From positions 221,607,234-221,671,233 of the forward strand of contig OY757010.1 in NCBI GenBank assembly GCA_963580285.1: a stretch of DNA of 64,000 nucleotides. The letters are read 5' to 3'. The position numbers and the translations under genes are program-made. Shown here in pieces: positions 1,368 through 8,455 of this stretch; positions within the stretch are counted from its first letter, which is position 1, and every line of letters starts with the position of its first letter. The notes under the pieces are model-generated. The model ran no database searches. It was not told the DNA's origin and saw nothing but the letters and a program-made list of their open reading frames with translations. This DNA comes from Lucinisca nassula. Taxonomy: Eukaryota > Mollusca > Bivalvia > Lucinida > Lucinidae.

Positions 1368-1492
1368 CAGGGGTTAGCGCGAACGCAGACCCCCACACAA
1401 ATAAATTGCGTACCCGAGTTACCCACATTTGGGGTAATCGCAGGCGTCAACCCAACCGAAGTGCAATGGAAGGGTCTCTTCCTGGGGGAACT
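1368..1492 (-). pseudogene. U1 snRNA 3' part, split by LINE-1
   Basis: Nucleotides 40-164 of U1: loop II ATTGCACTTCGG, stem-loop III, Sm-site region and terminal stem GGTCTGCGTTCGCGC. The break is aberrant: U1 nt 35-39 (GCCGT on the + strand), kept at all other insertions, are missing here, so the element joins directly at AACT. Confidence 0.95.
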
Positions 1493-2813
1493 TTTTTGTT
1501 TTTCATAAATTTATTATATTATCCTATTTACAATAAAAACCGGTGGGGTGTAAGGAGCCCCACACGGCCGACACCTTTAAAATAACAATATGAAACTTAA
1601 CAAAGACCTAGAAAAAACGTTACACATCGAGATATAGAAAATAAAAAATAGGAGAGAATATTGCAAAAGCCTAGATAGTATATTTATCTTGAACACTGAT
1701 ATGAGGGAAGAAAATTGGAAAGGGATAGATTTGACTGAAATGAAAATGAACCTTATGTGCACACCATTATGGTGCACAGAAATACAAATATATGAAAATT
1801 AAGTTAATAAACCCTAGCCCTAACAGGTGTCGTAATTGAAAGGTTAGTAATGATCTGACTCTTATGCAAATATAATTATATATATATATAACGAATAATG
1901 CCTACGAAAAATTAATGTGTTTTCCAAAAATACAGAAAAAATAAGGGGTGGGGATTTTTCAGTCCTTCACTGGTGATCTGGCTGATGTCGCAAGCGTCGT
2001 ACAACAATGTTGTCCGAGGCTCACGGCACCAGCGAGAAAAGCACCAACCTGGGTCTTAAAGTATTCTTAATAAATGAATCAGAGGGAAAAACCAGCAGTA
2101 ATTGTAATGAAAACAACCTTGACGATGACACTATGGATAAACGACGACAATAGACGATCACACACTGAAAAAAATGGGACACAAATTGGCTAGAATGTGA
2201 AAAGCAGTAGAAAAAGCTGGGGTTGGTATACGGTGTAATATGTGCTAGTTTGTGAACCTTTGCAATTTGTGGGGTAAAAATTCACCGTATATAGCCAGGG
2301 AGAGGAAAAAAGCAAAATTAAACCTTATCTCTTTTTTATATATTGGACCTTGGAAATCGCTCTTTGACCTATTCTGAAGGGCGGTGAAGGACTTGAAAAC
2401 TACAGCCGCACGCCCCGGTGACGAAAGACTCGGGTACCTTTCCCCACTAGGGCGCGAGACTGCGTTCATGTTAAAAAAGGAGGGGGTAATTTCAATTAAA
2501 AAATGTTATGTTGTAGATACTATTTGCAATAGAGTCAGACTCTACATATATAGGTTAGTACGGTACACGAAATATTCACAAATGACAAGTACATGTATAG
2601 TTTCTAGATCGTCAGACGGCTAGGCCAGTCTGAAACGAGAAAACTGTATTAATATATGCATATATACAATTATGGAATAAATTCAATGTGTGGTTACAGC
2701 GAAAGACGAAAATGTATATATTTTCAAAGCCTCGGACATACAGGCCAGCTGCAGTCCGGGGATGAGAAAAGATAAACAGATTTTTACAAAGAATAAATGA
2801 AATAATGAATAAT
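1493..2813 (-). other. LINE-1 3' UTR
   Basis: About 1.3 kb with no supportable gene. From the element's 3' tip inward: an A-rich tail with AATAAA about 15-20 nt from the end; a hairpin at 1540-1567 (six-pair GTGGGG/CCCCAC stem, extended by CCG/CGG across a one-base bulge); and two GC-rich blocks, 1960-2034 and 2378-2470, that are almost unchanged in all seven copies while the sequence between them varies. The 3' hairpin is a plausible recognition site for ORF2 reverse transcriptase, as in other LINEs (inference). Confidence 0.75.
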
Positions 2814-5800
2814 TTATGTTGGGCCTTTGAAATAATGACTTGGATAAAGCTGTTTATTAAAAATGACTGTTTTAGAATTTGAATCAAAATTACAAAAAAA
2901 TCCGTCCAAAATACACCAATTTTTAATAAAAGAATCCAAAGACATTAAATATTGATCAGCCAAAATTCTAAATTGTAATTTACTAAAAAATTGAGAAACC
3001 AAAGAAAAAGAAGAAATGTTTTTATTTTCATGTTTAGCTAAGTTTCGATTAATCCAGATAACATAACGCGATTCAGTAAGTAAAATTAGGCAAATTTCTG
3101 TGATACGTTTTGATAAATTTGGTAAAATATGAAATCGAAAAATAAGTTCGGAAAAAGTTATCTGGTTTTGTGTAATTCCCCTGATAAGTTTAAGTATAAT
3201 TCTGTTCAAAGGCACAACATATTTACATTCTAAAAATAAGTGATTTATGGTTTCGATTTTGGATTTACAAAGAGGACAGGTATTTACATTACTGATTTTC
3301 TTGTTAAATAAATAATAATTTACATATAAAACTTCGTGAATAATCTTCCAATAAATGTCTCTGACTTGGGGATCAATACAAGGTAAATACATATTTTTCC
3401 AAACAGTTTTAAAATTAATTTGGGGATACATATTTTGGAATTTGGGTCGGATGTTTAAATTATTCAAAAGGGTTTCATAAAAAGCTTTAGTTTTCATAGT
3501 TTTTATTGAAATATTATCATTTTTTATAGTGAAATTTTTAAAAACAGAAAGAGAAATTTCATAAAAATGGGGTAGTGTATCGCCATGGGGAGAAGAGTTG
3601 GAAGCCAAAGAAGGGTTAAATTTTCTAAGTTGAATGCCAATCCAATATTTAGCAAAATAAGTCCACTTAGCTTCATAACCATTAATCAATTTTTGTATGT
3701 GAGACAAATACATAGCTTCACATTTCAATTTGAAATTAGGGATGTTAAGGCCGCCATTTAGAAAACTAAGATACAGGGTATTTCTCGCAACAGGTTCAAA
3801 TTTTGAATTCCAAACAAATCTAAAACTAGATCTTGTCAACAGTGTAATGTAATGAGAAGGGATGATGGCTGCAGAAGCATAGAATAATATTTTCGATAAG
3901 CCAAGTGAATTCAAAACTGTAGATTTTCCTTTCAAAGACAGTTTTCTTAATTTCCAAAGATTCAGTGTTTTATCAAATCTAAGATAAACTTTGGACCAAG
4001 TTTCATCAGTGCTAACATTTTCTCCAAAATAATAACCCAGTATTTTCAAAGATTTCACCCAGCTAATACCGAAAGGATGATCTGACCTAGTTTTCCATTT
4101 ACCAAGGAATAACCCTTTTGATTTGTCATAATTAATTTTTGAGCCAGATATTCTGCCAAACTGTTTTACCCAATAGAAATATAAATGAATAGAAGTGTCA
4201 CTTGTCAATATACCAGTGCTATCATCAGCATATGCAGAGAATTTAGCTTCTAAGTTTGAACCAGGTAATTTCAGTCCTTTGATTTCCTCTAAGTTTCGAA
4301 TTTTATTTGCAAAAGGTTCAAGACAAATTACATAAAGTAAGGGAGATAAGGAGCAACCTTGTCGAACACCTCGTTTGAGTGAAAAAGATTCCGAAATAAA
4401 GTTATTTACAATAACCGAAGATGATATGTCAGTATATAACAGTTTAACCCATTTCAAGAAGTCGTTGTCAAAACCAAAAGCTGTCAAAGTATCATATAAA
4501 TAAGACCAGGATACTCTATCAAAAGCTTTTTCTTGATCCAAAGAAATGAAACATGCTGATAAGTTTTTCTGCTCGATATAATCAATAATGTTTCGTAGGA
4601 GATGAACATTGTCAAAAATCGAACGTCCTCTGACAGCACAAGTTTGATCTATATGTATAATCTTAGGTAAAACCTGACTAAGTCGATTTGAAATAACTTT
4701 CGAAATAATTTTATAGTCAATATTTAGAAGTGAAATAGGTCTATAACATTTCATTTCATCAGCCCTAGTTTCATCCTTGCAAATCAGAGTGATATAAGAA
4801 AGTTTTTGACTATCTGATAATTCACCTTTTTCATAAGCTAAGTTTATAACACTACATAGGGTATCACCAAGTATATCAAAAAATGTAACATAAAAGGAAC
4901 TGGAAAGGCCATCACTACCGGGGGATTTATGGGGTTTCATGTCTTTTAAAGCAGATAAAATTTCAGATTTATTAATTTTATGTTTCAGGTTATTATTGTC
5001 AGAGAGTTCGACTTGAGGAAGATTATCAAGAAAAAGAGAATTGAGAGATGAGTCAACAGGTTCTTCTGAGTAAAGCGATTCATAAAAAGATTTAAAACAG
5101 GTGAGTATATCTGATGATGATGAGTATGATACATTGTTATGAGTGATGTTTCTTATAGTTTTAGATTTTGAAGTAGAAACTTCTTTCTGAAAAAAATAAC
5201 TAGTAGGGTTTTCATTAGCTTCTAAATCTTTCGCCTTACTACGAATCAAAGTACCTTTCGAAAGAGAAGTTTCAATTTCTTTTACCTTAGTTTTAATTTC
5301 ATCTAAAATTTTCAAATCAGAAGCCTGCTTAAGATCCAAACGATTATATTGTTGTTTCAAAAGTTTCAATTCGCCATACAATTTCTTATTTTTAGATTTG
5401 GAGTAGTCTATACAAAACAGTTTTATATTAAGTTTCATACTATCCCACCAGTCCAAATCAACAGTTTCAGTTCTAGAAGTTATTTCCCAAAAGATTTTAA
5501 AAGCAGAGACAAAATTTTTATCTTCGAGAAGTTCGTCATTAAATTTCCAATAAGATTTACCAAAAGATACCCCAGCTCCATTTTGACAATTCAACTGCAT
5601 CATAATAAAATCGTGATCCGAGCAAACACAAGGTAAAGTATCAAAACCGATCAAATTATTTTTCATAGTAGAAGTAATATAAAATCTATCTAGTCTTGTC
5701 CCAATCATATCGTAGTTACTTACATTCTTTCTCATCCAAGTTATAGCGCGTTTTTTAGGATAAAGATGTCTAAAACAATCAACTAAGCTCATTTTTTCAA

Positions 5801-8322: not shown

Positions 8323-8338
8323 CTAACGCTAACGTTAG
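8323..8338 (-). other. LINE-1 5' UTR hairpin
   Basis: CTAACG and CGTTAG flank a 4-nt loop, 18 nt above the ORF1 ATG. The five outer pairs persist in all six elements although the loops differ. A TA-rich run (8345-8372) lies just upstream. Confidence 0.55.
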
Positions 8339-8423
8339 ACAACTATATATATGCAATATATATATATGTATAAAGGACTTGCCTTCGCGGTCCTGTAAAA
8401 CCTGGTTACAGAGAAAAACCGTA

Positions 8424-8455
8424 TGATCACAGTTCTCCCTGTACCAGGTAACTAT
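8424..8455 (-). pseudogene. U1 snRNA 5' part, split by LINE-1
   Basis: U1 nucleotides 1-32. The base complementary to 5' splice sites at U1 nt 4 is changed: the start reads ATAGTTACC instead of ATACTTACC (+ strand position 8452). No other copy in the window has this change. Confidence 0.95.

Follow-up and report, generated by a model that had tools for sequence, protein, structure and literature searches.

A U1-5S array interrupted by LINEs

The window analysed here is a stretch of 64,000 nucleotides from the bivalve Lucinisca nassula (GCA_963580285.1, contig OY757010.1, positions 221,607,234 to 221,671,233 of the forward strand), in which units carrying genes for 5S ribosomal RNA (rRNA) and for U1 small nuclear RNA (snRNA) alternate with long interspersed nuclear elements (LINEs). 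The Rfam scan placed ten U1 genes on the minus strand of the window, whereas the 5S genes, nine in number, are on the plus strand. Seven of the ten U1 loci are split by related LINEs at one point and in one orientation, while the other three are intact and mutually identical, just as an earlier reading based on the letters of the window (the sequence-only reading) had described. With one 5S-U1 unit as the query against the others, identities of 98.4-99.4% were obtained in four long comparisons. The features of the window are listed below, with the two open reading frames (ORFs) and the intervening spacer given for copy 1.

1492..8423, minus strand: complete LINE copy 1 inside U1, 3′ junction AAAAAA^GTTCC
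8424..8455, minus strand: U1 nucleotides 1-32 (5′ part) beside copy 1
7303..8304, minus strand: ORF1 of copy 1, 333 amino acids, with RRM-like folds (modest model) and a CX2CX4HX4C knuckle
6318..7302, minus strand: ORF1-ORF2 spacer of copy 1, with four covarying hairpins, 7 TACCTG and an open frame at 6332-7240
2814..6317, minus strand: ORF2 of copy 1, 1167 amino acids, with apurinic/apyrimidinic (AP) endonuclease, reverse transcriptase and zf-RVT
10550..17438, minus strand: complete LINE copy 2 in U1
21692..28720, minus strand: complete LINE copy 3 in U1
35101..42044, minus strand: complete LINE copy 4 in U1
44159..51098, minus strand: complete LINE copy 5 in U1
53214..60160, minus strand: complete LINE copy 6 in U1
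62273..64000, minus strand: LINE copy 7 in U1, 3′ part, truncated by the window end
19431..19594, minus strand: intact U1, empty site
30715..30878, minus strand: intact U1, empty site
32840..33003, minus strand: intact U1, empty site
8944..9062, plus strand: 5S rRNA gene of a 5S-U1 unit (one of nine)

The array was also examined over an extended region of 206 kb (G000:C1:221525000-221731199), where 29 U1 heads and 28 U1 tails resolve into 11 intact U1 genes and 16 complete two-ended elements. The leftover two heads and one tail are explained by a copy leaving the region, a U1 tail deleted to about nucleotide (nt) 104 and an assembly gap. Among the best Rfam candidates scored genome-wide, at least 42 are complete U1 genes, with 11 in this array, 10 on contig C56, one on C26, 12 in a second array on C4 and 8 elsewhere.

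Insertion site and junctions

All seven elements of the window are oriented like U1 itself, with U1 nt 32 on one side and the downstream U1 part on the other; the six complete ones are 6889-7029 bases long. The insertion site falls within stem-loop I, in what we take to be the U1-70K binding loop. The 5′ junction reads TGATCA in five of the six complete copies and TGATTA in the sixth, while at the 3′ end a short A run is followed by CGGCAG in six of seven elements and by GTTCC in one. This odd junction belongs to copy 1, where 7-8 U1 bases are missing; the usual U1 loss is GG or GGA, an ambiguity due to the A run. Among the 16 complete copies of the extended array, the 5′ junction is TGATCA in 11 (one of them TGATCAGGACGG), TGATTA in three, TGATAA in one and TGAAAA in one. 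One extended-array copy has GGACGG at its 5′ side and CGGCAG at its 3′ side, which amounts to a 3-4 base duplication, another retains GGACGG at the 3′ side, and in yet another U1 is missing up to about nt 104. The range of 1-4 lost U1 nucleotides claimed at the outset is thus set too narrowly, and no regular target-site duplication is seen. The 3′ A runs are 4-8 bases long, and two copies that are identical to three decimals over their aligned length nevertheless differ in this run (5 versus 4).

Genome-wide, 36 array-type element ends were found in U1, against none for the reversed control pattern. They continue into CGGCAG (30), GTTCC (4), GGACGG (1) or GCAG (1), all within a few bases of one point. 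Three further ends lie in U1 genes on C4, C6 and C9 that differ in sequence, and there the position is equal within one base when counted on the 3′ side.

Diversity of the inserted copies

The 16 complete copies fall into 11 groups with less than 97% identity to one another, down to 78%, and such differences between units that are themselves 98-99% alike argue that the array is not one amplified insertion. At the same time, three of the 11 groups contain copies that are 98.4-100% alike, with some array copies reaching 99.7-100% identity, so an additional part is played by duplication, by conversion or by one source inserting repeatedly. Identity is uneven along the window copies, which suggests recombination or template switching. 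Over their last 1.5 kb, the elements within U1 on C4, C6 and C9 are 65-70% identical to one of the array copies.

In the host part of the array, a reading frame of about 105 codons was observed within the 5S-U1 unit (9663-9983 of the window, minus strand) and also in the first unit, below position 1000; it had no Pfam match at E up to 1.

Proteins encoded by the elements

ORF2 spans 1167 codons in all six complete window copies, and in the 16 complete array copies the same length is found 13 times, next to one ORF2 of 1164 codons, one of 1135 codons and one that is broken. Its Pfam domains are Exo_endo_phos (6-235), RVT_1 (522-763) and zf-RVT (969-1034), and the closest solved structure is that of LINE-1 ORF2p (E 7.7e-82). 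Such a layout of an N-terminal AP endonuclease, a reverse transcriptase and a C-terminal zinc-binding part is common to the Tx1 and L1 clades and is not diagnostic. Over 15 pairs of window copies, the NG86 ratio of nonsynonymous to synonymous divergence (dN/dS) of ORF2 is 0.08-0.14 at a dS of 0.03-0.56, while ORF1 evolves faster (dS 0.52-1.78, dN/dS 0.13-0.30). The CX2CX4HX4C motif of ORF1 is invariant in the six window copies; in the four sequences scanned, zf-CCHC was matched weakly in one (E 0.12) and RRM_1 exceeded the cut-off in one. The predicted structure of ORF1 holds two RRM-like units at modest confidence (mean predicted local distance difference test score, pLDDT, of 51), and the top Foldseek matches of this model are tandem-RRM proteins (E about 4e-5) with low template-modelling scores of about 0.2-0.5. 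In the Tx1 clade, type I ORF1 proteins combine RRM with CCHC. The ORFs of the U1-targeted LINEs are intact and under selection, and we take the elements for a LINE family that resembles Tx1 and includes U1-targeted copies, its domains being found in the L1 clade too. A search for relatives of ORF2 in viral contigs found none.

Other targets in the genome

The exact last 18 bases of the element, used as a survey probe that misses diverged ends, gave 123 matches in 2.93 Gb, compared with 4 for the reversed control. Flanks classified by rule for 100 of these matches were U1 (22), U2 (12), a third arrayed, small-RNA-like gene designated X (11), the element itself, either in tandem or within its own ORF2 (15), and other sequences (36), while 4 were not element ends. 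The remaining 23 matches included 17 further U1 ends, five on C26 and 12 on C56, which are perhaps unplaced parts of the array studied here. Altogether, 113 element ends were read: 39 in U1, 12 in U2, 11 in X, 15 in self-tandem and 36 elsewhere. Taken together, the copies show that the family is not specific to U1, and the expectation of the sequence-only reading that most copies would be flanked by U1 was not borne out; what survives of its U1-specific family is the targeting of stem-loop I, seen on other contigs too. It had also proposed that a majority of copies outside U1 would reduce the array to a local amplification of one chance insertion. Such a majority was indeed counted, but the conclusion attached to it is contradicted by the lineages, the junctions and the other U1 loci.

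All 12 U2 ends lie before GTATCTG, the flank being GTATCTG(T/C)TCTTATCAG; these relatives are located on C3, and the gene was confirmed as U2 by Rfam at the one locus tested (L052). Gene X was followed by a 29-base motif with 106 exact matches, against 0 for the control, in arrays whose units are mostly 3-4 kb long and about 9.1 kb on C16 (examples are L134-L139, e.g. G000:C7:22763533-22850579). By reading, six aligned empty X copies agree in blocks of upstream sequence, in a stretch that resembles a TATA box and in AATTTG, which is Sm-like. Rfam gave no match for X at E below 0.3, with one CT-repeat match at E 0.31 and none for L050 and L086. Insertions in X are seen at their 3′ junctions only.

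In a tree drawn from the last 1.5 kb, rooted at its midpoint and given without support values, the U1-array copies are intermixed with X and other copies. The U1 copies on C6 and C9 adjoin the U2 copies, with the array copy E606632 nearby, and the U1 copy on C4 stands apart. Relatives sharing this 3′ end occur in U2 and also in X, so members of the family have probably shifted between targets, among U1, U2 and the third arrayed gene.

Two further structures were observed among the matches. At G000:C5:160510894-160520030 and C4:111600253-111604832, repeats of 4.56 kb have the element 3′ end joined to its own ORF2 near ATGAAAAAC, which looks like unequal crossing-over at a microhomology. Several flanks among the other insertions recur (L109/L115/L116; L110/L114/L117; L121/L122; L082/L107) and are perhaps further targets or host repeats; those that were tested had no Rfam match.

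The 5′ end of the elements

Nine of nine aligned lineages have, just ahead of the ORF1 start, arms reading CTAAC and GTTAG as well as a T-rich tract that closes with AG; in the window, the stretch with CTAAC, the tract and AG lies at 8305-8340 on the minus strand, and it is seen in other copies as well. CTAAC, the T-rich tract and AG resemble a branch point followed by an acceptor, and could possibly constitute an intron of the 5′ untranslated region or a trans-splice acceptor. U1 nt 25 is C in 9 of 16 element copies and T in all 11 intact array U1 genes, which suggests that the element RNAs carry U1 sequence of a donor gene and hints at their co-transcription with U1. Another hint comes from C13 (G000:C13:136860840-136887912, L102-L106), where elements are arranged head-to-tail in tandem, mostly at a spacing of 6962 bases, and where a U1 head belonging to another type of U1 comes after four of the five element ends.

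The spacer between ORF1 and ORF2

ORF1 and ORF2 are separated by a spacer of about 1 kb. In its four long hairpins, chosen from the predicted fold, changes on both sides were found in 14 of 84 pairs, compared with 4.0 in shuffled and 2-6 in slid controls, while over the fold of the whole spacer the covariation term is just -0.28. The fold of the copy 1 spacer has a z-score of -7.4, and that of the antisense strand -5.8. The motif TACCTG occurs 6-7 times per window spacer, where 0.24-0.39 are expected, a number reached in none of 2000 shuffles; across 15 array spacers it occurs 3-9 times, with 3 in two related copies. ATACTTACCTG, which equals U1 nt 1-11, is found twice in five of the six window spacers and once in the sixth, and by reading these copies of the U1 5′ end fall in differing codon frames.

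The spacer also maintains an open frame. In 15 of the 16 complete copies (one without a long ORF1 was skipped), a stop-free frame of 294-376 codons is present in 14, beginning at most 67 bases from the ORF1 stop and ending between -17 and +7 bases from the ORF2 start; the exception, with 198 codons, is the copy with the broken ORF2. In 14 pairs, random substitution at the numbers observed would give 2.0-9.1 stops; the chance of zero stops is 0.098 in the closest pair and does not exceed 0.016 in any other. Of the 24 gap blocks, 18 have a length divisible by three. A constrained third protein was considered and rejected, since dN/dS is 0.64-0.98 and the three codon positions change to the same extent. 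Since the frame is kept while the codon positions change alike, we infer selection for an open frame without visible amino-acid constraint. As a guess, the spacer could act as a translational relay to ORF2, or, alternatively, have a role like that of an internal ribosome entry site. A splice acceptor ahead of ORF2 was also discarded, as TTAG is present in only four of six copies and is not conserved.

Probable mechanism of insertion and alternative explanations

The explanation that we consider highly probable is that LINEs of several lineages, probably active, encoding an AP endonuclease and most like the Tx1/L1 group, integrate into U1 stem-loop I by target-primed reverse transcription (TPRT). 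It draws on the common site and orientation, both junctions, the empty sites, the selected ORFs, the lineages and the other U1 loci. In the proposed sequence of events, the endonuclease would nick the U1 antisense strand adjoining CTGCCG, and the nicked end would serve as the primer for a copy that starts at the short A tail with which the element RNA ends. Cleavage of the second strand near TGATCA would then produce the loss of 2-3 bases and, rarely, a short duplication or a larger loss. Complete element RNAs may be transcribed from the U1 promoter and include U1 nt 1-32; if so, this would account for the uniform 5′ junctions and for the complete copies. A more elaborate scheme, in which the element is a parasite of U1 with a U1(1-32)-LINE RNA, mimicry through ATACTTACCTG and TACCTG, a structured, stop-free 300-codon runway that ends at the ORF2 start and is selected for its open frame but not for a peptide, and retargeting among U1, U2 and the third gene, is considerably more speculative and appears doubtful as a whole.

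Several observations weigh against U1-directed TPRT as set out above. The junctions allow the nick CTGCCGT^CC proposed by the sequence-only reading, but they allow CTGCCG^TCC just as well, and the nick cannot be placed to the base. The survey was confined to exact 18-base ends, with flanks classified by rule for 100 of the 123 matches and 117 of the 123 read in all, and 36 of the 113 read ends lie at unrelated places. On the tree of the last 1.5 kb, L025 (elsewhere) and L128 (in X) are neighbours of U1 array copies, with very short branches, which implies either a leaky specificity or an exchange of tails. For the U1 genes on C4, C6 and C9, the evidence comes from the 3′ half of the gene, and one guessed pattern for the empty site of these variant U1 genes had 0 matches. 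Unit duplication or gene conversion may also have contributed part of the array copy number.

This last process could be extended to the whole array, if one or a few chance insertions of a LINE without U1 preference had entered a U1 unit and been amplified by unequal crossing-over and gene conversion. The copies of 99.7-100% identity, the homogenised array and the ends lying elsewhere would fit such an origin, but eleven groups diverging to 78% identity between nearly identical units, four kinds of 3′ junction at the site, the same site used in U1 genes of different sequence by elements 65-70% identical to one array copy over the last 1.5 kb, and the repeated same-site ends in the U2 array make it very improbable. 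It is also conceivable, yet in our judgement rather unlikely, that the elements are general LINEs of small-RNA genes, guided by a weak common feature of U1, U2 and X or by accessible snRNA-gene chromatin, and not separate specialised lineages. The intermixing of U1, X and other copies on the 3′-end tree and the adjoining of the same element 3′ end to three tandem-arrayed genes are in line with this, whereas the two U2 copies group together, apart from most array U1 copies; even so, the C6 and C9 U1 copies and E606632 are adjacent to them over the last 1.5 kb.

Relation to known elements

Complete co-oriented copies within a repeated RNA gene, co-transcribed with it, are also characteristic of R2 in 28S rRNA genes, which differs in its restriction-like endonuclease, its single ORF and its target. 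Target-specific LINEs of the Tx1 clade resemble the elements described here in the layout of ORF2, but we know of no structured stop-free spacer of this kind among them. A specific site in a multicopy target, a trait of that clade, is present here (36 ends in U1, 12 of 12 in U2), though 36 of 113 ends lie elsewhere. Membership among Utopia or R2-like elements is ruled out by the AP endonuclease domain, which is not restriction-like, and membership in Dada by the LINE ORFs and by the lack of a regular duplication.

In the accessible portion of a 2015 paper (PMC4640811), only Keno and Utopia (both in U2), Dada-U1 and Dada-U6 are reported for snRNA genes, and the Tx1-clade LINEs described there likewise combine an AP endonuclease with specific targets, among which U1 is not named. 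Keno, a member of that clade with an AP-like endonuclease and U2 as its target (PMC4640811, same portion), is a close counterpart by description: relatives with the same 3′ end are inserted here in U2 before GTATCTGTTC, but the main target is U1 stem-loop I, the window copies lie in U1 and the U2 insertion typical of Keno is found only in the C3 relatives. Utopia is likewise a LINE of snRNA genes that keeps several families in one array (PMC4640811, same portion), and differs in its restriction-like endonuclease and U2 target. Dada-U1 DNA transposons share insertion in U1 genes but, as described in the accessible parts of PMC3706591 and PMC8869645, have a DDE transposase, target duplications of 6-7 bp and another U1 site. 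The sequence-only reading had put forward a U1-specific LINE as possibly novel, and no U1-targeted LINE was found in the published literature searched by titles and abstract beginnings, with Repbase, Dfam and most subscription papers outside that scope.

A LINE at U1 would add a spliceosomal RNA gene target to those reported for snRNA-gene transposons. Related copies that share one genome but lie in U1, in U2 and in X also make a direct test bed for changes in LINE target choice, and endonucleases of this sort are of interest for targeted gene insertion. Finally, a spacer in which the frame is kept without a constrained peptide, and which contains copies of the U1 5′ end, poses a testable question on the translation of bicistronic LINE RNA.

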